From the NCBI GenBank assembly GCA_017517985.1, contig JAFWWX010000129.1, positions 1 to 18,732 on the forward strand: a stretch of DNA of 18,732 nucleotides, given 5' to 3'. Position numbers and translations under genes: made by a program. Of this stretch, positions 3,378 through 18,722 are shown one piece after another. The notes under the pieces were generated by a model, which made no database searches, was not told where the DNA came from, and saw nothing but the letters and a program-made list of their open reading frames with translations. This stretch comes from Clostridia bacterium. GTDB taxonomy: Bacteria > Bacillota_A > Clostridia > Oscillospirales > CAG-382. Positions within the stretch are counted from its first letter, which is position 1; each line of letters opens with the position of its first letter.

Positions 3378-3394
3378 ATATAAACATCCTTATA

Positions 3395-5401
3395 TTAATT
3401 TATTCTGAATATAACAAGCATATCTCTTGTACTGTTTACCTCACAGTCGTTATCAAGAATTGCCTTATTTCTGTCTTTTGAAAATCCTATTTCAAAGCCA
3501 CCGCATTTAACCTTCAACGGAATATCCGGAACTTCAATTTGCCGTATTTTGATACTTCCTTTAATACACTTGAGTTGAATATAGTCAATACCTCTCTCAA
3601 TAAATCCAAAGAAGTTATCAAAGCACACAACACCTCTGAACACACCCCTCTGTGCAAAATTCATATTTGGACAAAATTTATAGGATTTATTGTAAGCATC
3701 TATTTTCTGCCCACAGGATATACCAAGGAGTGAGTAGTTTACCGATGTAGCAGCATTATCGAATTCGTTTTTTGTATCATTCAACAGATTTCCTACAGTA
3801 ACCTCATATTTTTTTTCAAAATCCAAAACATCGGCAAGTCCAGTAATATCAGTGTACAGATGAAAAAGTTTGTTTTCATGCGAATTTTCAGCACAAACAT
3901 TTCCTGATTTAAGGGCTTCTTTGCATTTTTCATAAAGTATACTAAACTTTTCTGCGTGCTTCTTATCCTTCAAAATATCTGCCATTTCTAAGGAGGCTTT
4001 AAGCACTGCAGCATACAATTCAGAAACCAATGTGTCTGATTCTGTAATAAATTCAATTGAATCTATAATGTCATACCAGACCGAAGACAGCCACTGAAGG
4101 TTTCCACAAAGTTTAAACTCCCCATAAACTCTCAAAATATCGTATAGCTGACTTTTTATATTAACTCGGTTTTCCAAAGTACTTATTCTATACACATCAC
4201 TTCTGTAATGGTTTGCTATTATTGAGCGTTCAAGATTCGGAAAAAGATACGGAATTATATATGCGTAAGAAAAATATTCAAAATCGGAGGCCTTCTCACT
4301 GTCTCTGTCAGGAACATAACAGAGTGAGCCATCATAACCTCTGACATTTAACGGTGTTTTCAAGGCTGTTATACTTGCACTTACCGCCTCAAGAATCTTT
4401 ACAGGAAGTGTTGACGAGTACAAAACTTGCCTTAAAACATCCGTTTCCTCAAATAGTCTCTCCCACTGTGAAAGACAATAGTATGCACACTCATCGGCTC
4501 CCGTAAAATATCTTGAATAATAGTTTTTAATAATATTATTTTCGTAATTTTCAGTATCAGTATTATCAAAATTCATAATATTCATGGTATATGGCATATA
4601 CCAGGATATTAAAAATCTCACCTTGTTTTTTTCTCCGGGATTAAGTGTAAATTCTGTTGAAATTACAGCAGTGTTACTTATATCCTTTTCCGGCTCATAA
4701 ATACGGTTATCAAGATCACCGCGCAATATTTCTTCTACAAAGTCAGAAATTATGTCTTGCTTTGAATCTCTGCAAAGATGTTCAATGTATCTAATATTGT
4801 CACCGTATACGCCAATACACATTTCTCCCTGCTCGTATCTTTTTAGATTTTCCTTTGAAGACGAGAGCTTAATATATTTGATTTTATCGTTTCGGCTGTC
4901 TGAAAAACTATTGATACTGTAATCAAAAGGGTTTCTTAACACATCATAAAAAGTATACTTTATTGTTTCATTGCTGGTATTCTCAACCTCGTATTCCATT
5001 AGCGCTGCGGGAATACTTGAATCCGTGTCATTCAGCGGAATAAGTGGATTCCAGGCTGTTAGATATATCTTGCCCGGGAATTTGTCGTGAAAAAAATCAA
5101 TTTCGGAAAACGGTGTGCTGACAACAAAATCACTTTCGAGAAAACTATATGTTATATCGGAATCTGTTTGAAGTAGTCTTGCATCACACATTTCCCCATC
5201 TTTCTCTGCTTTTACAGCAAAAAAAGAAAAACATTTTCCTGATTTATTATCGGTCATATTAAGCGAATCAAAACCTGTCAACGCTCCATTTGATTCAAGT
5301 CTTATACACCCTGTGCCGATTCCACCCAAGGGAATTGATATATCTCTTTTATTTTCACCGGTATATATAATTTTTTTTATAGGATAATTCAGCTCATTCA
5401 T
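3395..5401 (-). CDS. GH116 (glucosylceramidase/GBA2-like) related protein, probably without a complete active site
   Basis: The first half of this 668-residue protein resembles the GBA2/GH116 N-terminal beta-sandwich domain: PLGGIGTGCI at 24-33, AWNPLIPLNDTDSSIPAALMEY near 116-137, and an FLISWYMPYTMN segment near 263-274. The second half follows the helical GH116 domain: a STLPVKILEAVSASI segment at 330-344, YLFPNLERS at 385-393, VYGEFKLCGNLQWL near 425-438, and SELYAAVLKASLEMA at 460-474. Between residues 452 and 460, active GH116 enzymes have a longer stretch that includes the catalytic Asp. Here the helices on either side are almost joined. After residue 500 similarity becomes poor. Typical GH116 enzymes are about 800 residues or more. 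No signal peptide is apparent. The ATG at 5401 follows GGAG with 7-nt spacing. It may be a binding or regulatory relative, or a divergent enzyme. The family link is from memory of motifs. Confidence 0.7.
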   Translation of the reverse strand: MNELNYPIKKIIYTGENKRDISIPLGGIGTGCIRLESNGALTGFDSLNMTDNKSGKCFSFFAVKAEKDGEMCDARLLQTDSDITYSFLESDFVVSTPFSEIDFFHDKFPGKIYLTAWNPLIPLNDTDSSIPAALMEYEVENTSNETIKYTFYDVLRNPFDYSINSFSDSRNDKIKYIKLSSSKENLKRYEQGEMCIGVYGDNIRYIEHLCRDSKQDIISDFVEEILRGDLDNRIYEPEKDISNTAVISTEFTLNPGEKNKVRFLISWYMPYTMNIMNFDNTDTENYENNIIKNYYSRYFTGADECAYYCLSQWERLFEETDVLRQVLYSSTLPVKILEAVSASITALKTPLNVRGYDGSLCYVPDRDSEKASDFEYFSYAYIIPYLFPNLERSIIANHYRSDVYRISTLENRVNIKSQLYDILRVYGEFKLCGNLQWLSSVWYDIIDSIEFITESDTLVSELYAAVLKASLEMADILKDKKHAEKFSILYEKCKEALKSGNVCAENSHENKLFHLYTDITGLADVLDFEKKYEVTVGNLLNDTKNEFDNAATSVNYSLLGISCGQKIDAYNKSYKFCPNMNFAQRGVFRGVVCFDNFFGFIERGIDYIQLKCIKGSIKIRQIEVPDIPLKVKCGGFEIGFSKDRNKAILDNDCEVNSTRDMLVIFRIN

Positions 5402-5579: not shown

Positions 5580-8018
5580 ATGTCGCTGTCAGAAAGATTT
5601 ATAAAAGCTAAACGAAAATTATTTGAAAGATATTATTTAAACCTTAACGATATGCAGAAAAGAGCTGTTTTTACAGTAAAGGGGCCTCTTCTTATTCTTG
5701 CAGGAGCAGGAAGCGGCAAGACCACTGTTCTTGTAAACAGAATCGCTTATATAATCAAATACGGAAACGCTTATTTCGGGGACACTCCGACAGACGGAAT
5801 CCCGGAAGAATTTGTATCTATGCTTGAAATAGTTGCAGATGACCCCAATACTTCAAGAGAGGACATTGAACAAAATCTTGAAATGTTTGCTCTTGAACCT
5901 GCAAGTCCATGGCAGGTACTTGCCATAACCTTTACAAACAAAGCCGCAAATGAGATGAAAGAACGCCTTTCGAAAATTCTTGGCGATGACGCTCTTGATA
6001 TATGGGCAGGCACCTTCCACTCTGTTTGTGTAAAGATTTTAAGAAGATTCATCGACAGGCTTGGCATTGATAACTCATTCACTATTTACGACACAGACGA
6101 TCAAAAAAAACTCGTTTCAGCCTGTCTTAAGGAGCTTAATATAGACGAAAAGAATATGCCGGCAAGAAGTGTTCTTTCAACCATCAGTAAGGCAAAAGAC
6201 AAGCTTATTGACTGCGATGATTTTGAGCTTAATATAAATAAACATAATATTCGTGAAGTTACTATATCAAAGATATACAGGCTTTATGAAGCAAAAAAAC
6301 GTGCGGCAAACGCACTTGACTTTGACGATATTATTGTTTATACGGTAAAACTTCTTACGGAGTTTCCTGAAATACGAAAGGTTTACACAGACAAATTCAA
6401 ATACGTTCTTGTTGACGAGTATCAGGATACAAACATGGCACAGTTTATGCTTGTAAAGCTGCTTTGCTCAAAAGAATGTAATGTAATGGCTGTTGGCGAT
6501 GACGACCAGAGTATTTATAAATTCAGAGGAGCAACAATTGAAAATATTCTTTCCTTTGACAAAAGCTTTGAAAACGCAAAGCTTATAAAGCTTGAACAGA
6601 ATTACCGTTCAAAAAGCAACATTCTCGATGCGGCAAACGCCATCATCTCAAACAACAAAGGCAGAAAAGGCAAAACACTCTGGACAAGTAACGACAAAGG
6701 TGAAAAAATCACAATCGCAAGTCTTGATACTCAGAATGACGAGGCAAGATACATCACTGATAAGATTGGCGAGCTTACGAAATGCGGTAAATACACCTAC
6801 AACGACATTGTTGTTCTTTACAGAATAAACGCTATGGCAAACTCCCTTGAAACAACCTTTGCAAAAAGCGGTTTCCCCTACCGTATACTTGGTGGAGTAA
6901 GATTCTATGACAGAAAAGAAATAAAGGATATTATTGCTTATCTTTGCTTTATACAGAATCCCTCCGATATGGTACGCCTGAGAAGAATAATCAACTGTCC
7001 AAGACGAGGTATCGGCGAAACTACAGTTAATGCAATTGATGCGGTTTGTTCAAAGTACGGGATAACCCCATATATTGCAATGAGGGATGCTTTAAATTAC
7101 AGTGAAATTTCAAGAAGCGCACCAAAGCTTCGTATTTTCTGCGATTTGATTGATGAATTTAGGAAAACAGCTGAAAATCAGCCACTTCCAGTACTTATTG
7201 AAAAGGTTATTGACAAAAGCGGTTATCGTCAAATGCTTCTTGATATGGGAGAGGAAGGAACAGACGATCTTGAGAATATTCAGGAACTTGTTTCAAATGC
7301 TGTAACCTATACAGAAAGTTCGGAAGAACCTACTCTTGCAGGATTCCTTGAAGAAGTTGCACTTGTTGCTGACATTGACAACTATGACAAGGATGCGGCA
7401 GCTGTAACTCTTATGACAATTCACAGTGCAAAAGGGCTTGAGTTTCCAATAGTATTTCTTCCCGGAATGGAGGAAAATATATTCCCCGGGCCAAAATCAA
7501 TTGGTGAAGAAGCAGAGCTTGAGGAAGAAAGACGACTTGCATATGTAGCGGTTACAAGAGCAAAGGAAAAACTCTATATTTCCCACACCCATTCAAGACT
7601 ACTTTTCGGAAGAACTTCATACAATCAGCTTTCTCGTTTTGCAAGTGAAATCCCGGATAATATAGTCAATCACGAGGGTGAACCGGGAATCAGTTATCTT
7701 CGTGGATTTGACAACGATTACTCACAGGAAAGACAGAGATTTTCCGGAACAGGTTTCTCAAGAGCAGGAAAAGCATCCCCACTTACAGACAACAGACCTT
7801 CCGGCACCAATATTTCCTCTTTTATGCCAAAGGTATCACAGGTTGCTTCCATCATATACAGTCCAGGGGATTATGTTGAACACCCGATTTTCGGCAAAGG
7901 CTTTATTATGACAACCAAAGCCATTGGCGCTGACACTCTTTATGAAATTGCTTTTGATAATGTCGGAACAAAGAAAATTATGGCAAGCTACGCAAAACTA
8001 AAACCCTGTTCAGAATAA
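5580..8018 (+). CDS. pcrA: ATP-dependent 3'-5' DNA helicase PcrA (UvrD/Rep family, SF1A)
   Basis: All SF1A helicase motifs are present in order in this 812-residue protein: the Q-motif (NLNDMQKRAV, about 21-30), Walker A GAGSGKT at 42-48, motif Ia AITFTNKAANEM near 115-126, TFHSVC near 145-150, motif II VDEYQDTN, motif III VGDDDQSIYKFRGA, motif IV EQNYRS, motif V TIHSAKGLEF, and motif VI RRLAYVAVTRAK. The last 45 or so residues (GDYVEHPIFGKG onward) form the Tudor-like C-terminal domain that in PcrA/UvrD contacts RNA polymerase. PcrA acts in nucleotide excision repair, conflict resolution and rolling-circle replication. Between motifs I and Ia there is an insert of about 43 residues (about 62-110) absent from Bacillus PcrA. 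Start: ATG at 5580, 6 nt after GGAG. The gene is monocistronic, ending at a terminator 5 bp downstream. Confidence 0.96.
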   Translation: MSLSERFIKAKRKLFERYYLNLNDMQKRAVFTVKGPLLILAGAGSGKTTVLVNRIAYIIKYGNAYFGDTPTDGIPEEFVSMLEIVADDPNTSREDIEQNLEMFALEPASPWQVLAITFTNKAANEMKERLSKILGDDALDIWAGTFHSVCVKILRRFIDRLGIDNSFTIYDTDDQKKLVSACLKELNIDEKNMPARSVLSTISKAKDKLIDCDDFELNINKHNIREVTISKIYRLYEAKKRAANALDFDDIIVYTVKLLTEFPEIRKVYTDKFKYVLVDEYQDTNMAQFMLVKLLCSKECNVMAVGDDDQSIYKFRGATIENILSFDKSFENAKLIKLEQNYRSKSNILDAANAIISNNKGRKGKTLWTSNDKGEKITIASLDTQNDEARYITDKIGELTKCGKYTYNDIVVLYRINAMANSLETTFAKSGFPYRILGGVRFYDRKEIKDIIAYLCFIQNPSDMVRLRRIINCPRRGIGETTVNAIDAVCSKYGITPYIAMRDALNYSEISRSAPKLRIFCDLIDEFRKTAENQPLPVLIEKVIDKSGYRQMLLDMGEEGTDDLENIQELVSNAVTYTESSEEPTLAGFLEEVALVADIDNYDKDAAAVTLMTIHSAKGLEFPIVFLPGMEENIFPGPKSIGEEAELEEERRLAYVAVTRAKEKLYISHTHSRLLFGRTSYNQLSRFASEIPDNIVNHEGEPGISYLRGFDNDYSQERQRFSGTGFSRAGKASPLTDNRPSGTNISSFMPKVSQVASIIYSPGDYVEHPIFGKGFIMTTKAIGADTLYEIAFDNVGTKKIMASYAKLKPCSE

Positions 8019-8681: not shown

Positions 8682-9395
8682 TTATTTCATTTTACAGTAA
8701 TCGTCGTAATATTTCTTGATTTCCTTAAGTCTTCTTTTGGGAATTGAAATGCTTTCGCCATTATCCATTATAAAGGAATCAACTGTAACATTGACAATTC
8801 TGTCCATATTGACAATACAGTTCTTATAGCTCCGGAGAAAATTTCCGTGCTTTAAGAGTCTATCTGCAACATCGGAAAAGGAAACGCTAAAAAAGCTTGA
8901 ATGTCCCTGTGTACTGTGTACCTCGACACTATGGTTTCCGTAATCAACATAATATATATCCGACAGACGGATATTGACAGCATTTTTCTTGAACATAAGT
9001 GTAATTGTATTATCTGTATGCTCATAATCTGCAACTGTCATATATATTCTGCCAAGGTGTTTTATGGGGTACAATGAAATAATGTATTTGCTGTAAATGT
9101 TGTGGTTTATTTGAACAGTAAGGCAGTCCTTTTTTACCACCTCGGCATCAAGTACCTGACAAAGTTCCGATTGGCTTAATATTTCTCTCAGGGCGGCCCT
9201 TGCCTCAGCATCAAGCTCATCAAATTTTTCCGGAAACATTTCAAGAAATATTTCTTGACCCACCATAGACTCATCTTCACGATATGATATTACACGAGCA
9301 GTTTTTTCCTTTACACTTATATTCACAGTAATTTTATAAATGTGATTTAACATTTCATTACACCGAACACATTGTTCGCCGGCAATATCTGTCAT
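8682..9395 (-). CDS. LytTR-domain DNA-binding regulator without a receiver domain
   Basis: Residues about 135-233 of this 237-residue protein form a LytTR DNA-binding domain (IRLSDIYYVDYGNHSVEVHS, then FLRSYKNCIVNMDRI at 187-201 and ISIPKRRLKEIKKYY at 216-230). The N-terminal 130 residues are not a response-regulator receiver: there is no acidic pocket or phosphoacceptor pattern. They read like a soluble PAS-like sensor (HIYKITVNISVKEKTARVIS near 18-37, then a helix-rich stretch and two beta-rich strands). That assignment is inference. The frame stays open upstream to 9473, inside the ligase gene, but GGAGG with 7-nt spacing points to the ATG at 9395. It is the last gene of the operon, 19 bp after the acyl-CoA synthetase. 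Its targets are unknown. Confidence 0.85.
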   Translation of the reverse strand: MTDIAGEQCVRCNEMLNHIYKITVNISVKEKTARVISYREDESMVGQEIFLEMFPEKFDELDAEARAALREILSQSELCQVLDAEVVKKDCLTVQINHNIYSKYIISLYPIKHLGRIYMTVADYEHTDNTITLMFKKNAVNIRLSDIYYVDYGNHSVEVHSTQGHSSFFSVSFSDVADRLLKHGNFLRSYKNCIVNMDRIVNVTVDSFIMDNGESISIPKRRLKEIKKYYDDYCKMK

Positions 9396-9414: not shown

Positions 9415-11106
9415 TTAATTATCACTCTTTTGTGCGTCCTTTTCACGAAGTTCACTTCTGCGGATCTTACCATTGAAGGTCTTGGGAAGTGAATCCACGT
9501 ACTCTACAACTCTTGGATACTTATATGGTGCTGTATTATCCTTTACATACTTCTGAAGCTCCTTTGTCAGAGCATCAGTACCCTCAAAACCGTTGTTAAG
9601 TACGATTGTTGCCTTAACGGCAAAACCTCTGACGGGATCAGGAACACCTGTTACAGCGACCTCCTTAACGGCATCATGTTCAAGAAGAACGCTTTCGATT
9701 TCAAAGGGCCCGATTCTGTATCCGGAGGATTTGATTACATCGTCATTTCTTCCGACATATCTGAACATACCCTTTTCATCTCTGTATGCGGTATCTCCTG
9801 TGTGATAAAAACCGTTGTACATAGCTCTTTCAGTGTCAACATCACTGAAGTTATATGTGTCGATAAGTCCGCAGGACTTTCTCTTTTTAGAGAGGACTCT
9901 GCAACAAATTTCACCGGTAGCACCTCTTACAACGGGATTTCCGTCAGGATCAAGAAGATGCATATCAAATCCGGGAACAGGATATCCAAGTGTTCCGGGA
10001 ACAGGCTTTGTCCATGGGTAAAGCGTTGCAATGCAAAGACAAGTTTCTGTCTGACCGAAGCCTTCGTAAATTTCAAGTCCTGTCGCAGCTTTCCATTTAT
10101 TGAATATTTCGGGATTAAGCGCTTCACCTGCACTACAGCAATGAGTAAGTGAAGAAAGGTCGTACTTTGACACATCCTGCTCAAGCATCATTCTGTACAT
10201 TGTAGGCGGAACACAGAAGGTGGTAACCCTGTGCTTCTCCATAACCTTAAGAACAGCAGCAGGATCAAATTTATCAAAGTCATAAACGAGTACGGCACTT
10301 TCTCCGAACCACTGTCCGTAGAACTTACCCCAAAGAGATTTCAGCCAACCTGTATCGGAAATTGTAAAGTGAAGACCACCATCTACAACTCTGTGCCAGA
10401 ACACACCGGTCATGATATGCCCAAGGGGATATTTAAAGTTATGGGTGATAATTTTCGGATATCCGGTAGTACCTGAGGAGAATGCCATAAGCATCATATC
10501 ATCTGCCTTGGTGGCATCCTTTCCTGTCGGTCTCTGCCATTTATCGCTTGCCATACTGAAGCCTTCTTCAAAGTCGTGCCAGCCGTTACCGCATTTTTTA
10601 TGCTCTGTAACAAGCTTTATCTCGACTGTTTCATAGCCTTCACCTTCATCAAAATACTCAGTTGCATTGCCGAAACCTGTTGCAATTACGCACTTTATCT
10701 GACCTGCATTACATCTGTATACATAGTCCTTGGCTTTGAGCATATCTGTTGCCTGTACTGCAACAGCTCCTATTTTATGAAGACCAAGCATACAGAACCA
10801 GAAGTAATAGCTTCTTCTGAGTACAAGAAGGACTCTGTCACCTTTTTTAATTCCAAGATATTTAAAGTAGTTTGCTGCCTTATTGGACGCAAGCATCATA
10901 TCTTTAAAAGTAAACTTTTTTTCCTCACCGTCATTTGAAACCCAAATCATAGCAAGCTTATCGGGTTTTGTTTTTCCAAGAACATCTATAACATCATATG
11001 CGAAGTTGAAGTTGTCATTGAATGTAAGTGTATAGTTTTGCTGTGCATCCTCAAGTGACAGAAAGTCATCTCTGGATGCTCCAACAAACTTTTCGTATAT
11101 AGCCAT
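9415..11106 (-). CDS. AMP-forming acyl-CoA synthetase (acetyl/medium-chain acyl-CoA synthetase type)
   Basis: This 563-residue ANL-superfamily enzyme activates a carboxylic acid through an acyl-adenylate to its CoA thioester. Core motifs are intact: FSSGTTGYPK (209-218, phosphate-binding loop), YEGFGQTET (347-355), YHTGD (434-438, ribose-binding Asp), YVGRNDDVIKSSGYRIGPFEIES region (450-472, hinge and CoA site), and the C-terminal catalytic Lys K547 in NGKIRR. The sequence resembles the AcsA/medium-chain (MACS-like) group more than long-chain FadD enzymes. The acid is not readable from sequence. The operon (VOR, ilvE) suggests a branched short-chain acid or an arylacetate. Start: ATG at 11106 after AAGGAG. 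It lies 35 bp downstream of the XRE-cupin gene and 19 bp upstream of the LytTR gene. Reverse use to make ATP from acyl-CoA is possible but less usual for AMP-forming enzymes. Confidence 0.93.
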   Translation of the reverse strand: MAIYEKFVGASRDDFLSLEDAQQNYTLTFNDNFNFAYDVIDVLGKTKPDKLAMIWVSNDGEEKKFTFKDMMLASNKAANYFKYLGIKKGDRVLLVLRRSYYFWFCMLGLHKIGAVAVQATDMLKAKDYVYRCNAGQIKCVIATGFGNATEYFDEGEGYETVEIKLVTEHKKCGNGWHDFEEGFSMASDKWQRPTGKDATKADDMMLMAFSSGTTGYPKIITHNFKYPLGHIMTGVFWHRVVDGGLHFTISDTGWLKSLWGKFYGQWFGESAVLVYDFDKFDPAAVLKVMEKHRVTTFCVPPTMYRMMLEQDVSKYDLSSLTHCCSAGEALNPEIFNKWKAATGLEIYEGFGQTETCLCIATLYPWTKPVPGTLGYPVPGFDMHLLDPDGNPVVRGATGEICCRVLSKKRKSCGLIDTYNFSDVDTERAMYNGFYHTGDTAYRDEKGMFRYVGRNDDVIKSSGYRIGPFEIESVLLEHDAVKEVAVTGVPDPVRGFAVKATIVLNNGFEGTDALTKELQKYVKDNTAPYKYPRVVEYVDSLPKTFNGKIRRSELREKDAQKSDN

Positions 11107-11141
11107 TGGTTTAATCTCCTTTTATTTGCTTGTTATATTTT

Positions 11142-11693
11142 TTATTTCATTACTACAGCAATAAATTGTGCTTCTTTGTCGCCGATTGCTACTTCTGCAT
11201 GCGGAATACTTGCATCAAAATATACACTATCGCCTTTTGAAAGCTCATAGGAAATATCACCAATGTAAAGCATCATCTTTCCTGAGAGGACATAGTTAAA
11301 CTCCTGTCCTTCGTGACCGTGCATTACGGGAGGCTTATTGTCGGGAGTTATTGTAACAAGGAAAGGCTCTGCCTTCTTGTTTCTGAAGGTATATGCAAGG
11401 TGCTTATAATCGTATTCTTCGTCACGCTTAACGGAATAACCCTTGCCCTTCTTTACCATACAACACATAGAAAGGGTCGGCGCACTGCCGCTGATTAAAT
11501 CCAGAACATCAACACCTAATATCTCTGCTGCATTGTAAATAAGGCTGAAGGAGAAATCCATTTCGCCGTTTTCATATGCAAGGTAGGAATCGTGGTCGAC
11601 TTCAAGTCTTGATGCCATCTCATTAGTTGTTATATCCATATCCTCACGGAGAGCACGAAGTCTAAGACCAATATCCTTTATCTGTTCGTTCAT
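11142..11693 (-). CDS. XRE-family regulator with C-terminal cupin sensor
   Basis: This 183-residue protein has a helix-turn-helix domain at about 5-65 (RLRALREDMDITTNEMA, then SYLAYENGE) and a cupin_2 barrel at about 105-182. The cupin keeps a metal-site pattern: H125, H127, E131 (HGHEGQEF) and H165 (IPHAEV). In this architecture the cupin senses a small ligand or metal and the HTH binds operators, often of the neighbouring genes. An upstream TTG at 11714 is in frame, but that reading would include the Shine-Dalgarno AAAGGAT. The ATG at 11693 sits 7-8 nt after it and is preferred. The gene is inside the operon, between vorC and the acyl-CoA synthetase, where such regulators commonly accompany AMP-forming ligases. 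It is probably a regulator of this operon. Ligand unknown. Confidence 0.93.
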   Translation of the reverse strand: MNEQIKDIGLRLRALREDMDITTNEMASRLEVDHDSYLAYENGEMDFSFSLIYNAAEILGVDVLDLISGSAPTLSMCCMVKKGKGYSVKRDEEYDYKHLAYTFRNKKAEPFLVTITPDNKPPVMHGHEGQEFNYVLSGKMMLYIGDISYELSKGDSVYFDASIPHAEVAIGDKEAQFIAVVMK

Positions 11694-11730
11694 AATCAAT
11701 ATCCTTTCTTTCAAATAATAAACTTACGGC

Positions 11731-12267
11731 TTACTTTACAAATTCGTATCCTAGAGTAAGTGCTTTCTTGTTAGGTTCAAAAAGCTTTACCTTTGTGGGA
11801 GGAACAACCTTCTGCAGTGCCGCTTCGGTATTTTCAAAAGAAGTGATATTGCACTTCTTAATAATCGCACCGGTTATTATCATATTTGCAAGACCTGAAA
11901 GGTCGTTTTCTGTAGCCATAGAGCTTGCCGGAATGTAAACTACATCAACATCGCTTCTTTCAACCTTTCTGTCAATAAGAGCGCTGTCAACAAAGATTGT
12001 TCCGCCGGGAATTACCTCGTTTACATACTTATCAAGAGAAGGTGTGTTCATCGCTACAAGGATTTCAGGCTTATCTACTATGGGAGAACCTATAATTGTA
12101 TCGCTAAGAATGATGGAACAGTTAGCTGTACCGCCTCTCATTTCAGGACCGTAGGAAGGAAGCCAGGATACCTGTCTATCTTCATTAAGTCCGATATATG
12201 CAAGGAATTTACCTGCAAAAAGGATTCCCTGACCGCCAAATCCAGCAATAAGTATTTTCTTTTCCAT
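11731..12267 (-). CDS. vorC: 2-oxoacid:ferredoxin oxidoreductase gamma subunit (VorC type)
   Basis: This 178-residue subunit forms the gamma domain of the four-part ferredoxin-dependent 2-oxoacid oxidoreductase. In the PFOR/VOR family it is the domain that helps position CoA. It shows the family's GFGGQGI at 9-15 and SYGPEMRGGTANC at 38-50, followed by a Rossmann-like alternation to the end. Its Shine-Dalgarno AAAGGAGG lies across the end of vorA, with the stop codon of vorA only 3 bp from the ATG, so the two are translationally linked. Length is typical. The name vorC depends on the substrate assignment of the complex; the 2-oxoglutarate equivalent would be korC. Confidence 0.92.
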   Translation of the reverse strand: MEKKILIAGFGGQGILFAGKFLAYIGLNEDRQVSWLPSYGPEMRGGTANCSIILSDTIIGSPIVDKPEILVAMNTPSLDKYVNEVIPGGTIFVDSALIDRKVERSDVDVVYIPASSMATENDLSGLANMIITGAIIKKCNITSFENTEAALQKVVPPTKVKLFEPNKKALTLGYEFVK

Positions 12268-12270
12268 TTG

Positions 12271-13017
12271 TCAGTCCTCCTTTGCTGTAATATCCTTATA
12301 TACACCGAGAGGATAATAAGGAATCATATTTTCTTCAAGCCATACAAGAGCGTCTTCCGGAGTCTTACCCCAGTTTGTGGGACAAGTGGAAAGTACTTCA
12401 ACAAGAGAGAAGCCCTTGCCGTCAATCTGATTCTGGAATGCCTTCTTAATAGCTGCTTTTGCTTTCTTTACATTCTTTACATTGTTTACTGCGACTCTTT
12501 CAAGATATACAGCACCATCAACATTGGAAAGCATTTCGCAAACCTTTACAGGGTAACCTACAGTATTGACATCTCTTCCGTAGGGAGAGGTCTGTGTTAC
12601 CTGACCGGGAAGTGTTGTGGGAGCCATCTGGCCACCTGTCATACCGTAAATTGCATTGTTTACAAAAATTACTGTGATGTTTTCGCGTCTTGCCGCTGCG
12701 TGTACTGTTTCAGCAGTACCAATCGCTGCAAGGTCACCATCACCCTGATATGTAAATACAATATTTTCCTTATCGCTTCTTTTGATGCCTGTAGCAACAG
12801 CCGGAGCACGTCCGTGAGCTGCCTGTACCATATCGCAGTTAAAGTAGTTGTATGCAAACACGGAGCATCCTACAGGCGCAACACCGATTGTCTTACCAAG
12901 AACTCCGAGTTCTTCAAGAACTTCTGCTACAAGTCTGTGGATTATACCGTGTGTACAACCGGGACAGTAGTGAAGCGGTGCGTCTGTCAGTCCCTTTGTT
13001 TTTTCAAATACTGTCAT
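12271..13017 (-). CDS. vorA: 2-oxoacid:ferredoxin oxidoreductase beta subunit, thiamine-diphosphate binding (VorA type)
   Basis: This 248-residue subunit binds thiamine diphosphate and Mg2+, where the 2-oxo acid is decarboxylated (or formed, in reverse). The TPP motif is clear: GDGD at 92-95, followed by NN at 120-121 and IYGMTGGQMAPT near 123-134. HYCPGCTHG near 16-24 and the conserved GVAPVGCS and AHGRAPAVATG segments match the beta subunit of VOR/KOR enzymes. The start ATG overlaps the vorB stop by one base (TAATG), which indicates translational coupling. Electrons pass to the ferredoxin subunit encoded upstream. Confidence 0.94.
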   Translation of the reverse strand: MTVFEKTKGLTDAPLHYCPGCTHGIIHRLVAEVLEELGVLGKTIGVAPVGCSVFAYNYFNCDMVQAAHGRAPAVATGIKRSDKENIVFTYQGDGDLAAIGTAETVHAAARRENITVIFVNNAIYGMTGGQMAPTTLPGQVTQTSPYGRDVNTVGYPVKVCEMLSNVDGAVYLERVAVNNVKNVKKAKAAIKKAFQNQIDGKGFSLVEVLSTCPTNWGKTPEDALVWLEENMIPYYPLGVYKDITAKED

Positions 13018-14090
13018 TAGTTTTTACCTCCATCCTTTGCAACTTCGCAAATCTTATCAAGAATGAATTCGGGAGAAGGAATCATACCGCCTGTTCTTGT
13101 GCAGGAATATACCGGCTTTTTGCACTTTGTTGCAAGCTCTACATCTTCAATCATCTGACCCATATTTAGCTCAACACAGATAAAGCTCTTTACCTTGTCT
13201 GCAGCTTCAAGAAGTACTTTCTTTGGGAATGGCCAGAGTGTGATAGGTCTTATCATACCAATCTTTATTCCCTTTTCTCTTGCAGCATCAATGGCATTCT
13301 GTGCAACTCTTGATGCAACACCAAATGCAACAACACAGTATTCTGCATCGTCCATCTTGTAGGATTCGTACATTACTTCGTTTTCTTCAACCTTGGCATA
13401 TCTTTCATATCTTTCAAGGTTCCAGTTTTCAAGGTGTTCGGGGTTAAGTGCAAGGGAGTTTACAATATTAGGTTTTCTTTCTTCCTTTGTACCCGTAGTT
13501 GCCCAAGGCTTTTCGATTTTTTCCGGAGCAGGTACATTGTCAAAAGACACAGGTTCCATCATCTGACCAAGTGTACCGTCTGCAAGAATCATTGCAGTCA
13601 TTCTGTATTTATCTGCAAGGTCAAAGCCTTTAACTGTAAGATTTACCATTTCGTTAACAGAGTTAGGGGCAAGAACGATAAGGTGGAAGTCACCATGTCC
13701 ACCGCCTTTTGTTGCCTGGAAATAGTCAGACTGAGAAGGCTGAATACCACCAAGTCCAGGACCGCCTCTCTGTACGTTTACAATAAGTGCGGGAAGGTCG
13801 CAGCCTGCAAGATAGGATATACCTTCGCTCTTAAGGGATATTCCGGGGCTGGAGGATGATGTCATTACTCTCTTACCTGTTGATGCAACACCAATAACCA
13901 TATTGATTGCCGCAACTTCACTCTCTGCCTGGAGGAATACACCTCCGTCAATTTTGGGAAGTCTTTTTGACATATATGCTGCAACTTCCGTCTGGGGGGT
14001 TATGGGGTATCCGAAGTAGTGACGGCAACCTGCCATTATAGCAGCTTCTGCCATTGCTTCATTACCCTTCATAAGTTTCTTTTCGCTCAT
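13017..14090 (-). CDS. vorB: 2-oxoacid:ferredoxin oxidoreductase alpha subunit (VorB type, 3-methyl-2-oxobutanoate)
   Basis: This 357-residue subunit contains the pyrimidine-binding domain of the thiamine enzyme (GYPITPQTE at 27-35, QAESEVAAI near 54-62, TSSSSPGISLKSEG near 77-90, GGIQPSQSDYFQATKGGGHGD in the middle) and the C-terminal transketolase-like domain (IRPITLWPFP). It matches clostridial proteins commonly named VorB (2-oxoisovalerate), but substrate calls in this family are weak: KOR, VOR and IOR look alike. An in-frame start exists at 14135 inside the ferredoxin gene. AAAGGA with 9-nt spacing before the ATG at 14090 decides the start. Gene order delta-alpha-beta-gamma within 2.6 kb marks a complete enzyme. 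Confidence 0.93.
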   Translation of the reverse strand: MSEKKLMKGNEAMAEAAIMAGCRHYFGYPITPQTEVAAYMSKRLPKIDGGVFLQAESEVAAINMVIGVASTGKRVMTSSSSPGISLKSEGISYLAGCDLPALIVNVQRGGPGLGGIQPSQSDYFQATKGGGHGDFHLIVLAPNSVNEMVNLTVKGFDLADKYRMTAMILADGTLGQMMEPVSFDNVPAPEKIEKPWATTGTKEERKPNIVNSLALNPEHLENWNLERYERYAKVEENEVMYESYKMDDAEYCVVAFGVASRVAQNAIDAAREKGIKIGMIRPITLWPFPKKVLLEAADKVKSFICVELNMGQMIEDVELATKCKKPVYSCTRTGGMIPSPEFILDKICEVAKDGGKN

Positions 14091-14124
14091 TTTATCATTT
14101 CCTTTCGTAACAAACAAATATGTA

Positions 14125-14328
14125 TTACTTTTCAACGGTAATTACGCAATCGGGACACATTGTTGCACAGAACGCACAAGCTATACAAGCACTCTGGTCT
14201 GTGATGCCCGCTGTACGGTAACCCTTGGCATTAAGCTTATCGTTAAGCTTAACTATCTTCTTGGGACAGGCTGATACGCAAAGACCACAGCCTTTACACA
14301 TATCTTCTTTAAATGTAACCTTCGGCAT
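14125..14328 (-). CDS. Ferredoxin-type delta subunit with two [4Fe-4S] clusters
   Basis: This 67-residue protein is a bacterial-type ferredoxin with two complete CxxCxxCxxxCP motifs: C11, C14, C17, C21 and C48, C51, C54, C58. There is an additional C61. It matches the delta subunit of four-subunit 2-oxoacid:ferredoxin oxidoreductases and would carry electrons between the thiamine site and the soluble ferredoxin pool. Start: ATG at 14328, 8 nt after GAGG. It precedes vorB by 34 bp and follows the P-loop ATPase gene by 21 bp. Confidence 0.94.
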   Translation of the reverse strand: MPKVTFKEDMCKGCGLCVSACPKKIVKLNDKLNAKGYRTAGITDQSACIACAFCATMCPDCVITVEK

Positions 14329-14349
14329 AGTTTTTTCCTCGCTTTCTTT

Positions 14350-15024
14350 TCAAAATGACTGTCTGACGCAAATTTTAATCGGCATAAGAGCAGTTATTTT
14401 TGTTTTTAATTCTTTGTATATTGTATCTTTAACAGTTGTGAACTTAAGTGGAATTCCGGAAAGCTCCGAAACCTTTTCTGAATACTCAACACTTGCAAGA
14501 ACATCTTCTGCTGTTGTTTCGTCTCCGATGTTTGAGTTATTCACAATTCCCGTAAATTTTACTCCGGCAGAATACTCTATTTCCCTCATAACTTCAATTG
14601 TTTCTTCGGGAGTTCCTGTCAGAAAACGGTACTTGTTAATCACAAAAAGCATCTCAAAGTTATTTTCCTCAACAAGATACGGTACATATCTTCCGAGAGC
14701 CAGCGCACCTCTGTCGTCACCGCCCACATCTATAACTGCGTGTTTGCTTTTGTCGTGGACTATTGAATAAGCCTGCGCCGGAAGTGCCGGTGTATCAACA
14801 TTTGTATTTGCCATAACGGATGACACAAGTCTTATACCGTTTTCGGAAAGAAGCTTCTCTGCATCCTTTGTTCGGAAATATGGATTTACTATATCAAGGT
14901 CGGCAATATCAACGTTTATTCCACTTTCCTTGATTTGTAAGGCATAATTTATGGCAATATTTGTTTTTCCACTTCCGTAGTGACCTGCAAAGATTGTTAC
15001 TCTTTTCAAATTTTTACAATCCAT
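14350..15024 (-). CDS. SIMIBI-class P-loop ATPase (MinD/CobQ-like) of unknown function, linked to VOR
   Basis: This 224-residue soluble protein has a Walker A loop GHYGSGKT at 14-21, where the signature Lys of MinD/ParA-type deviant loops is replaced by His15. It also has DLDIVNPYF at 42-50 (a switch-I-like segment) and VIDVGGDDRG at 97-106 (DxGG switch II). NKYRFLTG (130-137) and NNSNIGDET (162-170) are further conserved-looking blocks. There is no C-terminal amphipathic helix like that of MinD and no CxxC motif like that of the Mrp/Nbp35 Fe-S carriers. I recall similar genes beside 2-oxoacid:ferredoxin oxidoreductases in other Clostridia, but know no assigned function. Here it sits directly before the ferredoxin subunit. 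Its ATG overlaps the end of ilvE by 19 bp, with GAGG 10 nt upstream, so its synthesis is coupled to ilvE. Confidence 0.85.
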   Translation of the reverse strand: MDCKNLKRVTIFAGHYGSGKTNIAINYALQIKESGINVDIADLDIVNPYFRTKDAEKLLSENGIRLVSSVMANTNVDTPALPAQAYSIVHDKSKHAVIDVGGDDRGALALGRYVPYLVEENNFEMLFVINKYRFLTGTPEETIEVMREIEYSAGVKFTGIVNNSNIGDETTAEDVLASVEYSEKVSELSGIPLKFTTVKDTIYKELKTKITALMPIKICVRQSF

Positions 15025-16064
15025 CCGTGTTTATCCTCAATCTTGCCCCACTGAATACCTGTAAGTGTATCGTAGAGATGCTGAGTGGTTTTGCCAATTT
15101 CATTGTTGTTAACTGTATATTCCTTACCGTCAAAGGAGAGCTTTCCGATAGGAGATACTACAGCCGCAGTACCACAACCCCATGCTTCTTCAAGTGTACC
15201 ATTTTCGCAAGCTTCAAGAAGTTCATCTACAGAGAGAAGTCTTTCGCTAACATTGTAGCCTTCCTCTCTGAGAAGCTCAAGGCAGGACTTTCTTGTAATA
15301 CCGGGAAGAATTGAGCCTGTGAGCATAGGAGTAACGACCTCGCCCGCAATCTTGAACATTACATTCATAGCACCAACTTCTTCTATATACTTTCTTTCAA
15401 TACCGTCAAGCCAAAGTACCTGTGTGTAGCCCTTTTCTTCAGCTTTTGCACCTGCTCTGTTTGCAGCAGCATAGTTGCCACCGCACTTTGCAAAACCTGT
15501 ACCGCCTTTAACTGCTCTTACATCGTCCTTTTCAATCATAATTTTTACGGGATTGATACCTTCTTTGTAGTAGCTTCCGCTGGGAGATGCTATAATTACA
15601 AATTTTGCGTTCTGGATTCCATGAACACCAAGTGTTTCATCGTTACCGAAAAGGAAGGGTCTGAGATACAGAGATTCTCCTGCGCCGTAAGGTACCCATT
15701 CCTGCTCGTGCTTTACAAATTCTGTAATAGCTTTGAGCATATCTTCTTCGGGCATTGTGGGAAGCTGAAGTCTATCAGCGGAGTTGTTCATTCTTCTTAC
15801 ATTTTCAATAGGTCTGAAAAGCTGAACGCTTCCGTCTGCGATTCTGTATGCCTTAAGTCCTTCAAAAATTTCAGCACCATAATGAAACACTGTTGCTGCA
15901 GGGTGAAGTGAAAGATTTGCAAAGGGTACTATTCTTGCATCATACCAGCCCTTCTGAACATTGTAGTCCATTACGAACATATGGTCTGTAAAGTGCTTTC
16001 CAAAGCCAAGGTTTTCAGTAACCTTTGTACCTGGAGTTTTTGTGTTTTCAATTCTAATTTCCAT
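15006..16064 (-). CDS. ilvE: Branched-chain-amino-acid aminotransferase (fold-type IV PLP enzyme)
   Basis: This 352-residue enzyme interconverts valine, leucine and isoleucine with their 2-oxo acids, using glutamate/2-oxoglutarate. It is the long BCAT form shared with eukaryotes and many Firmicutes: an LSLHPAATVFHYGAEIFEGLKAYR stretch near 51-74, LYLRPFLFGND near 132-142, the PLP-binding Lys K193 in AKCGGNYAA, EEVGAMNVMF, and the cofactor-phosphate loop with GCGTAAVVSP near 306-315. Length is normal. Start: ATG at 16064 after GAGAGG, 5 bp from the metA stop. Position between metA and the VOR genes suggests that it takes or supplies the branched 2-oxo acids handled by VOR. Confidence 0.96.
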   Translation of the reverse strand: MEIRIENTKTPGTKVTENLGFGKHFTDHMFVMDYNVQKGWYDARIVPFANLSLHPAATVFHYGAEIFEGLKAYRIADGSVQLFRPIENVRRMNNSADRLQLPTMPEEDMLKAITEFVKHEQEWVPYGAGESLYLRPFLFGNDETLGVHGIQNAKFVIIASPSGSYYKEGINPVKIMIEKDDVRAVKGGTGFAKCGGNYAAANRAGAKAEEKGYTQVLWLDGIERKYIEEVGAMNVMFKIAGEVVTPMLTGSILPGITRKSCLELLREEGYNVSERLLSVDELLEACENGTLEEAWGCGTAAVVSPIGKLSFDGKEYTVNNNEIGKTTQHLYDTLTGIQWGKIEDKHGWIVKI

Positions 16065-16069
16065 TTTTA

Positions 16070-17002
16070 TTACCTCTCTTTGTTGAATTCAATTTGGGTT
16101 ATATCATATGGTGTTGTCTGATATACATAATAGTTAAGCCAGTTGGAATAAATGAGATTTGCGTGTGAACGCCAGGTACAAAGTGGTTCTTTTGTATCAT
16201 CGTCATCCGGAAAGTAATTTACCGGAATTTCAATGGGAAGTCCTGCGTTCTTGTCTCTCAAATATTCGTTTTTCAATGTTTGCGCATCATATTCGGAATG
16301 TCCGGTTATAAATATCTGTCTTCCACCATCCGTTGAAACTGCATATACTCCGGCTTCCTTGCTAGATGCAAGTATTCTCAGTTCGGAGACCTTTTCTATA
16401 TCCTCTCTGTGAACGGTTGTATGTCTGGAATGTGGAACAAGAAATTCATCATCAAAGCCACGAAACAGCATTGAAGATTTTCTGTCAACCGTATGCCTGA
16501 ACACACCGAACATTTTTTTATCAAGCGGATATTTTTTTATTCCGTAATGATAGTAAAGTCCAGCCTGTGCTCCCCAGCAAATATGGAATGTACTGTGTAC
16601 ATTTGTCTTTGTCCATTCCATTATCTCGCAAAGCTCCTGCCAGTAGTCGACATCTTCAAACTCAATTTGCTCTACAGGTGCACCGGTAATTATCATACCG
16701 TCAAACTTTCTGTTTTTTATATCGTCAAAGTGTTTATAGAATGCAAGCAAGTGGTCTTTCGAGGTATTCTTTGATGTATGAGATTTTGTACAGATAAGCT
16801 CAAGCTCAACCTGCAACGGAGAGTTTCCAAGCAGTCTTGAAAGCTGTGTTTCCGTGTCAATTTTTAATGGCATAAGATTAAGAAGAACAATCTTCAATGG
16901 TCTTATATCCTGAGTCATCGCACGCTTTTCTGTCATTACGAAAATATTTTCCTGATTAAGCGTCTTTACAGCCGGTAGTTCATTTGGTATTTTTATCGGC
17001 AT
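16070..17002 (-). CDS. metA: Homoserine O-acetyltransferase (MetA family)
   Basis: This 310-residue enzyme acylates homoserine in the first committed step of methionine synthesis. With E. coli-type numbering the catalytic residues fall exactly in place: Cys142 (HICWGAQAG), His235 and Glu237 (ITGHSEYD). Residue 111 is Glu ([10 protein letters not shown]). In studied MetA proteins Glu111 gives acetyl-CoA preference, whereas Gly111 gives succinyl-CoA, so O-acetylhomoserine is the expected product. This fits the adjacent O-acetylhomoserine sulfhydrylase. It is cytoplasmic. Start: ATG at 17002 after AGAGGTGA, 14 bp downstream of metY. Confidence 0.96.
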
Positions 17003-17016
17003 TAAATCACCTCTTT

Positions 17017-18294
17017 TCAGTCACAAAGAGCCTGTGCTAAGTCTGCGATAATATCCTCTGCATTTTCAATACCGCAGGAGAATCTTATCATACTCGGAGA
17101 AATTCCGCAGTTGTAAAGCTCTGCGTCAGACATCTGACGGTGAGTTGCGCTTGCCGGATGAAGAACACAGGTATGAGCATCCGCAACATGAGTTGCAATA
17201 ATGGCAAGTTTTAGCTTCTTCATAAACTTTTCGGCAGCTGCTCTTCCGCCCTTGATTTCAAAACTTACGACACCGCAGGAACCCTTGGGAAGATATTTCT
17301 GTGCAAGCTCGTAATATTTGTCACCCTCAAGTCCGCAGTATTTGACAGATTCAATCTTTTCGTGATTATTTAAAAATTCTGCAACAGCCTGACCGTTTGC
17401 ACAGTGTCTTTCCATTCTTACATGCAGACTTTCAAGTCCCAGATTAAGAAGAAAAGCATTCTGTGGCGACTGAATAGAACCAAGGTCACGCATAAGCTGT
17501 GCGGTTGCTTTTGTGATATATGCACCTTCAAGCCCGAATTTTTCTGTATATGTTATTCCGTGATAGCTGTGGTCGGGTGTACACAGTCCAGGGAATTTGT
17601 CCGGATACTTTGTCCAGTCGAACTTACCGCTGTCAACTATACATCCGCCAACGCCGGAGGCGTGACCATCCATATACTTTGTCGTGGAATGGATTACAAT
17701 GTCTGCACCCCATTCAATAGGTCTGCAGTTTACAGGAGTTGCAAAAGTATTATCGATTATAAGCGGAACTCCATGCTTATGAGCCATATTTGCAAACTTT
17801 TCAATATCAAGAACAACAAGTGCAGGATTTGCGATAGTTTCGGCAAAAACTGCCTTTGTATTTGGTTTAAATGCTGCTTCAAATTCTTCTTCAGAGCAGT
17901 CGGGATTTATAAATGTAAACTCAATACCCATTCTTTTCATTGTTACGGCAAAAAGATTATAGCTTCCGCCATAAATGCAGGAGGATGCTACAACATGGTC
18001 TCCGCAGGAAGCAATATTAAACACACTGTAAAAGGATGCTGCCTGACCGGAGGATGTAAGCATTGCTGCACTACCGCCTTCGAGGGCACAGATTTTTGCT
18101 GCTACATTGTCATTTGTGGGATTCTGAAGTCTTGTGTAGAAATAACCGCTTGCTTCAAGGTCAAACAGCTTTGCCATATCCTCACTTGTATCGTATTTAA
18201 AGGTTGTACTCTGGATAATCGGTATCTGTCTCGGTTCACCATTTCCGGGAATATATCCCCCTTGAACACAGGTTGTTTCAATTTTGTTTTTCAT
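17017..18294 (-). CDS. metY: O-acetylhomoserine sulfhydrylase (O-acetylhomoserine aminocarboxypropyltransferase)
   Basis: This 425-residue PLP enzyme of the Cys/Met metabolism family joins O-acetylhomoserine with sulfide (to homocysteine) or methanethiol (to methionine). Markers: [13 protein letters not shown] near 50-62, SSGQAAS near 81-87, DNTFATP at 181-187, and the PLP Lys K206 in [10 protein letters not shown]. The long stretch between the PLP Lys and the next block ([14 protein letters not shown], then YHGITY) is typical of MetY rather than of cystathionine gamma-synthase or beta-lyase, which are shorter (about 380-400 residues). The frame opens with an ATG at 18303 that overlaps the Shine-Dalgarno AAGGAT. 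The ATG at 18294, 7 nt downstream of it, is preferred. It is the first enzyme gene of the operon. Confidence 0.95.
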
Positions 18295-18322
18295 ATTAAC
18301 CATCCTTTCATAAACAAAGATA

Positions 18323-18351
18323 TGCGGTCTTGCAACTCTTGCAAAACCGCA
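18323..18351 (-). promoter_or_regulatory. Hairpin between the small membrane gene and metY (possible attenuator or weak terminator)
   Basis: TGCGGT, a one-base mismatch and TTGCAA (18323-18335) pair with TTGCAA, the mismatch and ACCGCA (18339-18351) around a 3-nt loop: 12 pairs in all. In the minus-strand RNA it is followed by UAUCUUUGUUUAUG, a broken U-tract, and then the metY ribosome binding site. It could end a fraction of transcripts of the small gene, or act as an RNA-processing or attenuation element before metY. The 71-bp gap is too short for a SAM riboswitch or a T-box. Confidence 0.5.
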
Positions 18352-18365
18352 CCTGATAGTTTAGT

Positions 18366-18662
18366 TTAAGTTCTTGTCACACACAGTTTTGCAATATTTA
18401 ATTTTTTTGGCTTACGCATTATAATAATCGCAGAAATTATAATTATGGGCATAGCAATCATAATTATGCTGTGTATTATAATTCCATAAAAAATAATGCC
18501 GATAAGCGCAAAGAGAAGAAAAACAGACACTGCCGCAGCAATGCCTGTAATAACAGCATTATTAACAAAATTCGCAGAATTGTGCGCACAAAAAGTAGAA
18601 GGTGCAGTACTGTTTGCATCTTTAGAAAAACTCTTATTTCCATTTGAAAAAGCTTTGAGCAT
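18366..18662 (-). CDS. Small membrane protein of unknown function, first gene of the operon
   Basis: I do not recognise this 98-residue protein. Residues 1-35 are polar and Ser/Asn/Ala-rich. About 36-60 and 61-82 form two adjoining very hydrophobic segments with an Ile-rich second half (MPIIIISAIIIM). The end is short and basic (RKPKKLNIAK and on). The frame is open from 18680, but GGAGGT with 7-nt spacing places the start at the ATG at 18662. A perfect sigma-A promoter lies immediately upstream, which supports expression. It is 71 bp upstream of metY on the same strand. A link to sulfur or amino-acid metabolism is only suggested by position. Confidence 0.7.
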   Translation of the reverse strand: MLKAFSNGNKSFSKDANSTAPSTFCAHNSANFVNNAVITGIAAAVSVFLLFALIGIIFYGIIIHSIIMIAMPIIIISAIIIMRKPKKLNIAKLCVTRT

Positions 18663-18693: not shown

Positions 18694-18722
18694 ATTATAT
18701 CACGCCACCGTCATTTTGTCAA
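18694..18722 (-). promoter_or_regulatory. Perfect-consensus sigma-A promoter at the head of the operon
   Basis: On the minus strand, TTGACA (complement of 18717-18722) and TATAAT (complement of 18694-18699) are exactly 17 bp apart, a full match to the vegetative consensus. The predicted start site is near 18687, leaving a leader of about 25 nt before the ATG at 18662. It probably drives the small membrane gene and, past the hairpin at 18323-18351, the metY-to-LytTR run. Confidence 0.9.

Follow-up and report, generated by a model that had tools for sequence, protein, structure and literature searches.

Organisation of the locus

The window, by which we mean the whole 18,732-nucleotide stretch of Clostridia bacterium DNA analysed here (GenBank assembly GCA_017517985.1, contig JAFWWX010000129.1), carries on its minus strand a run of genes in which a branched-chain aminotransferase (ilvE), the subunits of the oxidoreductase VOR and an AMP-forming acyl-CoA ligase lie behind an isoleucine-rich open reading frame (ORF) and a terminator-like hairpin. 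We propose, with a probability of roughly 0.74, that this operon serves amino-acid biosynthesis from a branched short-chain acid, mainly of isoleucine from 2-methylbutyrate, and that it is under attenuation control. Gene families were assigned by profile matches with curated cut-offs (NCBIfam/TIGR and Pfam) and RNAs by Rfam models. In the order of transcription, the features are as follows.

18694..18722, minus strand: promoter-like site, TTGACA-17-TATAAT with TG preceding the second hexamer (12/12 match)
18366..18662, minus strand: leader ORF of 98 amino acids with 19 Ile, at most 12 Ile per 20 residues, and 3 Met in the distal part
18322..18352, minus strand: terminator-like hairpin in the interval between leader ORF and metY, 14 pairs of which 6 are G-C, -19.7 kcal/mol
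17017..18303 (start may be 18294), minus strand: metY-like O-acetylhomoserine sulfhydrylase (TIGR01326, 579 bits, cut-off 495)
16070..17002, minus strand: metA, homoserine O-acetyltransferase (NF047918, 516 bits, cut-off 460.5)
15006..16064, minus strand: ilvE, class II branched-chain aminotransferase (TIGR01123, 405.6 bits, above the cut-off of 250.05)
14350..15024, minus strand: SIMIBI-type P-loop NTPase (weak CbiA/ParA match below cut-off; model pLDDT 87)
14125..14328, minus strand: 2x[4Fe-4S] ferredoxin subunit (delta), 67 amino acids, with Fer4 domains
13017..14090, minus strand: vorB, alpha subunit (NF005507 VorB, 542.5 bits, cut-off 399)
12271..13017, minus strand: vorA, thiamine pyrophosphate-binding beta subunit (PF02775; below every curated NCBIfam cut-off)
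11731..12267, minus strand: vorC, gamma subunit (PF01558; below every curated NCBIfam cut-off)
11142..11693, minus strand: XRE-cupin regulator (HTH_19 and Cupin_2)
9415..11106, minus strand: AMP-forming acyl-CoA ligase, MacsMa-type (PF00501/PF13193; 612 bits to PDB 3etc)
8682..9395, minus strand: LytTR-domain protein (PF04397)

The original prediction had placed eight genes, ilvE to ligase, at 9415-16064 in one direction with gaps of no more than 37 bp, and both coordinates and spacing are confirmed. Of the several overlaps that it mentioned there are only two, of 19 bp between ilvE and the NTPase gene and of 1 bp between vorB and vorA; the other genes are separated by 21 bp (NTPase to ferredoxin), 34 bp (ferredoxin to vorB, with its ATG at 14090), 3 bp (vorA to vorC), 37 bp (vorC to XRE-cupin) and 35 bp (XRE-cupin to ligase). 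Its eight genes were right but its extent was too short, as it left out the leader and the two genes metY and metA. Only 5 bp separate metA from ilvE and 14 bp metY from metA, hence the run starts upstream of ilvE. From metY through the ligase the largest gap is 37 bp, and a scan of the minus strand found no terminator-like site between these two genes. The LytTR-domain gene starts 19 bp past the ligase, and a relative of it also follows the ligase in three related loci (L004, L007 and L014); it is possibly the last member of the operon.

Conservation of the operon

A ligase-based scan of genome contigs gave 18 loci (L001-L018), of which L001, from a water-buffalo caecum metagenome-assembled genome (MAG), encodes a ligase 96% identical to that of the window. 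The order ilvE-NTPase-ferredoxin-vorB-vorA-vorC-XRE-cupin-ligase is kept in 10 of the 18 (L001, L002, L004, L005, L006, L007, L009, L010, L012 and L017) and in five further genomes (G062-G066), so that the comparison of operon order originally called for upholds the arrangement. In L011 the block lacks a preceding ilvE, contig ends interrupt L003 and L008, and in L013-L016 and L018 the full arrangement is absent or the locus is fragmentary. The operon arrangement is not due to chance. The window, L001 and L002 are alone in having metY-metA upstream of it; in L004, L005 and L011 the genes in this position encode an amidohydrolase, a protein resembling LeuA (312 bits in L004, cut-off 532) and an AP_endonuclease-FadD-like ligase fusion. 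The operon of G008 is split, with LeuA_dimer, ilvE and vorB on one contig and the ligase on another. What we call the 17 operon genomes are those with vorB to ligase together (G001-G007, G009-G012, G015 and G062-G066); G008 is left out.

Two further observations were made in these loci. L015, an archaeal MAG (Methanomethylophilaceae), has a VOR-NTPase block divergent from an XRE-cupin gene and two MacsMa-like ligases. At 7497-7596 of the window, inside a uvrD-like gene, there is a match below the gathering score to RF03531, a C. difficile small RNA located within a helicase gene; it is also found in L001.

The enzymes

The nearest solved relative of the ligase is MacsMa of Methanosarcina acetivorans, to which the match extends over residues 10-558. 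The four pocket residues of MacsMa (K256, W259, C298 and G351) are all conserved in the window ligase with identical numbering; K256 and C298 are taken by us to have roles in the pocket. The window ligase has the AMP-binding and C-terminal domains of the Macs type, with Gly for the acetate-limiting Trp. MacsMa prefers 2-methylbutyrate, and Trp259 and the Gly that replaces the acetate Trp matter for its acyl pocket (PMC10455477). For the window ligase the substrate is a prediction; the preference of MacsMa matches the isoleucine assignment made below and would complete the proposal. Relatives of the ligase are, where their sources name them, called ‘acetyl-CoA synthetase’ or ‘AMP-binding protein’.

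The best NCBIfam model for the ligase is MbcS (NF047394), the S. aureus methylbutyryl-CoA synthetase, which activates 2-methylbutyrate and isobutyrate and serves lipid synthesis (PMC10026030). By analogy, the acyl-CoA could mainly be a primer for branched-chain membrane lipids, obtained via the ligase from the acid or via IlvE and VOR from the amino acid. We regard this as very improbable: the match, at 420.6 bits, reaches half of the MbcS cut-off of 850, there are no fatty-acid genes in the run, and leaders coded for amino acids (see below) are unsuited to a lipid role.

The alpha (PF01855/PF17147), beta (PF02775), gamma (PF01558) and delta (Fer4) families of VOR are all encoded in adjacent genes. 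VorA and VorC lie below the curated cut-offs and the nearest solved chain to VorA is a 2-oxoglutarate oxidoreductase; the specificity of the complex therefore rests on context. The NTPase adjoins VOR in all 30 VorB loci fetched from the 43 genomes with VorB, and it has 8000 homologues or more, of which the few that bear a name are called hypothetical protein or P-loop NTPase. The nearest folds to its model are SRP GTPases and HypB. We considered a known maturation factor and rejected it, as sequence and fold searches give the SIMIBI class only. In other genera the NTPase-ferredoxin-vorBAC block is followed by ispD (L155, PF01128) or an ispF-family gene (L157, PF02542), and an ispD/ispF-type neighbour, judged by eye, follows it likewise in L156 and L161.

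In the route that we propose, the ligase would convert a branched short-chain acid, presumably supplied by neighbouring gut bacteria, and ATP to the acyl-CoA, the VOR complex would combine this with CO2 at the expense of reduced ferredoxin to give the 2-oxo acid, and IlvE would aminate the 2-oxo acid to the amino acid.

The leader

The window has the layout of an attenuator, with a promoter, a codon-rich ORF and a terminator-like hairpin before the first gene. When charged Ile-tRNA is low, the ribosome would stall in the Ile-rich ORF, the terminator before metY would not form, and the operon would be switched on. A promoter-like site, an Ile-rich ORF and a hairpin lie upstream of the operon in 16 loci (the window and 15 others), with leaders of three families: long ones of 80-102 amino acids (window, G001, G004, G005, G007-G011 and G015), one of 38 amino acids ending in AICRA (G062-G066) and one of 45 amino acids (G006). 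G009, G010 and G015 are near-identical and so not independent, and the contigs of G002 and G003 show no operon start. A further 12 homologues of the window leader have 97-103 amino acids. The promoter-like sites score 10-12 of 12 in all 16 loci; in 15 of the 16 a script called a hairpin and T-run downstream of the ORF, the call being poor for G008 and the wrong hairpin for G066, and in both the expected hairpin can be read in the sequence. The peak of isoleucine is 9-13 per 20 residues in 13 of the 16 leaders (8 in G011, 7 in G004 and 6 in G006); among the 485 ORFs of at least 160 amino acids in the same loci, one reaches 9 and none reaches 10.

The codon content of the leader tracks the gene content of the operon. 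The two leaders ahead of metY-metA have 3 and 4 Met in their distal part, and the other 14 have 0 or 1. The four leaders of operons with a LeuA-like gene have Leu/Ile ratios of 0.33-1.44, as against 0.09-0.67 for the remaining 12 (Mann-Whitney p 0.0045, with rows that are not independent and G008 classed by its LeuA_dimer match).

The long form exceeds classic leader peptides in length, and its N-terminal half (SKDA..TAPS) is conserved among the leader homologues, which is atypical of leader peptides and weighs against our interpretation; the long leaders could be small membrane proteins that are Ile-rich for another reason. The terminator hairpin appears in the computed fold, and the whole leader segment is not unusually stable (z -1.8), which also suits an ordinary membrane protein ahead of an operon that is not controlled by isoleucine. 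We consider this rather improbable, because the 38- and 45-residue ORFs, which have no detected similarity, substitute for the long form in six genomes, because Met and Leu vary with the genes downstream as described above, and because in L012 a T-box is found.

T-boxes and their specifier codons

The operon of L012 has a T-box at 4708-4939 (RF00230, 101 bits against a cut-off of 93), preceded by a promoter-like site and followed directly by ilvE; its specifier is AUC (Ile). No T-box was found ahead of the operon in the 16 leader loci. The specifier column was calibrated on the UGG of the T-box before trpB in L158 (TIGR00263, 510 bits, cut-off 392); its core reads UGGC instead of UGGU, which we take to be expected for Trp tRNA and to support the calibration. 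The T-boxes found show Stem I, specifier and GGTGGTACCGCG core. A stem-I model (R1), trained on 13 leaders that it later found, gave 49 matches in a first set of 82 sources and 7 in a second set of 40, with a weakest E of 3.8e-9; at least the T-box core at 10944 of L158 escaped it, and its misses therefore do not prove absence.

Paralogues of the ligase exist as XRE-cupin-ligase fusions, single proteins of about 760 amino acids (for example in L159, L160, L162 and L154). A T-box was found upstream of the fusion gene in 33 of the 36 genomes examined, and not in G055, G025 or G053; in all 33 the next gene begins 117-244 nt past stem I and starts with the XRE-cupin part, followed by the ligase. 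The fusion in 33 loci suggests that the separate XRE-cupin and ligase of the window may act together. Nineteen regions upstream of standalone ligases (open frames of 552-579 amino acids, L189-L207) yielded no T-box.

The specifiers of the 33 fusion T-boxes are AUC (Ile) in 25, GUA (Val) in 7 and GUC (Val) in one, G035. Six of the GUA genomes (G001, G007, G062, G063, G064 and G066) have the window-type operon; the seventh is G014, whose contig holds only the operon end (L014), from which the operon is inferred. Where the window-type operon is absent, 25 of 26 T-box-led fusions read Ile, the exception being G035, where the GUC T-box is followed in one run by fusion ligase, NTPase, ferredoxin, vorBAC and ilvE, the whole route (L154). 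The fusion thus reads Val where the operon exists and, G035 apart, Ile where it does not, and by division of labour the operon ligase would be the isoleucine one.

LeuA-like genes have a T-box directly upstream in 15 of the 21 regions examined, two of which were very short, and all 15 read CUC (Leu); a CUC T-box in L220, found upstream of a LeuA_dimer gene, precedes another ORF and is excluded from this count. In L162 (4499-8666) a divergent LeuA-like gene and an AP_endonuclease_2-FadD-like ligase fusion stand behind a CUC T-box; in L004, L005 and L011 this pair belongs to the operon itself, and several of the four genomes have leuB below cut-off. L162 also has, behind a UUC (Phe) T-box at 2302-4377, genes for a phenylacetate-CoA ligase of the PaaK kind and for a protein with an ACT-domain pair, and a PaaK relative adjoins IorA in three of six IorA loci (L163, L167 and L168). 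Fifteen of the 17 operon genomes have IorA above its cut-off (it is in two pieces in G065 and absent from G005). Given the separate PaaK with its Phe T-box and the IorA, we rejected an arylacetate as the substrate of the operon; of the substrates first envisaged, conversion of 2-methylbutyrate to isoleucine is the most likely and arylacetates are unlikely.

A single ligase and VOR of broad range could instead serve valine, leucine and isoleucine alike, with the Ile codons merely the control signal. IlvE accepts all three branched-chain substrates. Each of the 43 genomes has a single VorB match (E up to 1e-60), so the same VOR must act on several acids. In S. aureus the whole ilv-leu operon is under an Ile/Leu-rich leader (PMC5794164). 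We nevertheless find this reading doubtful: genomes such as G001 and G063 also have a fusion ligase coded for Val and a LeuA-like gene coded for Leu, which leaves isoleucine to the operon ligase, and the L012 T-box specifies Ile alone. The product is most likely isoleucine and not any branched-chain amino acid.

The standard pathway in relatives

We searched 76 relatives for ilvC, ilvB, leuB, LeuA_dimer, ilvE, hisD, alaS and IorA, and 63 genomes of the family of G001 for ilvD; all are draft genomes, and alaS is over its cut-off in 68 of the 76. In G001, the nearest relative of the window, ilvE and hisD are present, ilvB, ilvC and ilvD are absent and no leuB is over its cut-off. Its sister G014, the other member of the nearest genus, also lacks ilvB, ilvC and ilvD. 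Ten of the 17 operon genomes are without both ilvC and an over-cut-off ilvB, and none has just one of the two; hisD is present in 16 and alaS in all 17. Across the family, VOR and ilvC tend not to coexist: ilvC is found in 7 of 43 genomes with VOR as against 16 of 20 without it (Fisher p 1.7e-6), and hisD in 23 of 23 genomes with ilvC as against 21 of 36 with VOR and no ilvC. In G018 (L158), ilvB, ilvN, leuA, leuC and leuB are adjacent, and ilvC and ilvD were not found in that genome.

Discussion

We regard the synthetic direction as well supported, on comparative and regulatory grounds. It is favoured by the Ile leaders, the Ile T-box of L012, the Val T-box of G035 and the fact that the closest relatives have lost ilvB, ilvC and ilvD; were the operon catabolic, shortage of its own substrate should not induce it. 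The original proposal that acid activation, reductive carboxylation and transamination form one unit gains support from the 16 leader loci, the L012 T-box and the absence of the pathway in G001. It had named amino-acid oxidation as the main alternative: the branched-chain amino acids would be deaminated and oxidised to acyl-CoA with reduction of ferredoxin, the ligase running in reverse or salvaging acid. The same enzymes catalyse this direction in amino-acid fermenters. In addition, for syntrophs it has been proposed that AMP-forming ligases work towards ATP formation (PMC5017805), and many family genomes with VOR and no ilvC are also without hisD, as considered below. However, Ile codons before a terminator-like hairpin, like the Ile T-box, would turn the operon on at isoleucine shortage, the wrong sign for catabolism; metY-metA share the operon, and neither a butyrate kinase nor an ADP-forming synthetase is among the genes of the run. 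Oxidation is accordingly disfavoured, and we hold it to be highly unlikely.

Several further observations weigh against biosynthesis under isoleucine control. RF00230, at E up to 0.5, finds no T-box in the window itself. Among ORFs of 35-159 amino acids, 20 of 2912 (leaders counted in) reach 9 Ile per 20 residues, and the G006 leader holds just 6 Ile and 6 Val. Of the VOR subunits, only VorB reaches a curated NCBIfam cut-off; VorA, VorC and the ferredoxin pass none among the matches listed. The content of pathway genes is that of relatives’ genomes, and while the check for ilvC, ilvD and leu genes originally suggested bears out the expectation in G001, ilvB and ilvC are both kept in 7 of the 17 operon genomes; we have therefore rejected the operon as a strict replacement of the ilv pathway. 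For the family-wide exclusion between VOR and ilvC, independent contrasts are few: an alaS tree of 68 rows offers 9 independent pairs, of which on average some 2.5 are informative, each of them pointing the expected way, with a median p of 0.25. G014 is also without hisD, and its leuB-like gene scores 269 bits, short of the cut-off of 353; hisD is missing in 15 of the 36 family genomes with VOR and no ilvC. These hisD losses point to general auxotrophy growing in some of these lineages.

The chemistry has precedents. Rumen bacteria carboxylate isovalerate to leucine, isobutyrate to valine and 2-methylbutyrate to isoleucine (Allison, Peel and Robinson, 1966-1971, cited in PMC7356843), and our proposal resembles this pathway in its acids, its chemistry and the kind of habitat; as late as 2020 a paper described the reverse reaction as not yet proven (PMC7709123). 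The rumen pathway is known from feeding and isotope work, to which the window adds a candidate operon with its regulation. Leader-peptide attenuation is described for the S. aureus ilv-leu operon and, as cited in the same paper, for ilv operons of E. coli (PMC5794164). These attenuators and the window share a cluster of branched-chain codons and a terminator followed by biosynthesis genes; unlike them, the window leader would govern acid activation and VOR in place of ilvBCD, and it is long with a conserved N-terminal half. The T-boxes described here have a standard Stem I, specifier and core and are unusual in preceding acyl-CoA ligases: ‘CoA ligase’, ‘CoA synthetase’ and ‘ferredoxin’ do not occur in the main text of either of two surveys of T-boxes (PMC2494555 and PMC3766115), and we found no description of the operon or of T-box-controlled acid ligases among the papers listed by one open-access library, which lacks most subscription journals. 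Carboxylation being known, what is new is the operon, its regulation and the code that matches ligase to amino acid.

We lean, if only slightly, towards a wider regulon among the gut Clostridia of the family, in which every growth-factor acid would have a separate ligase controlled by a separate tRNA-sensing leader and all would share one VOR (IorA for the aromatic acid); in some members of the family the whole would have replaced ilvB, ilvC, ilvD and leuB. Within it, 2-methylbutyrate would enter via the window operon or, where this is missing, the Ile-coded fusion ligase; isobutyrate would enter, towards valine, via the Val-coded fusion ligase and phenylacetate, towards phenylalanine, via PaaK-ACT with its UUC T-box. 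Isovalerate would probably enter, towards leucine, via the LeuA-like gene and the AP_endonuclease-FadD-like ligase behind the CUC T-box.

The nutritional need of gut and rumen bacteria for branched-chain acids (in part phenylacetate) as amino-acid precursors has been known for some sixty years, and the genes described here are candidates for meeting it. The specifier codons name the product of acyl-CoA ligases that could not otherwise be assigned. If our interpretation is true, cross-feeding on branched acids becomes predictable from genomes, and testable.

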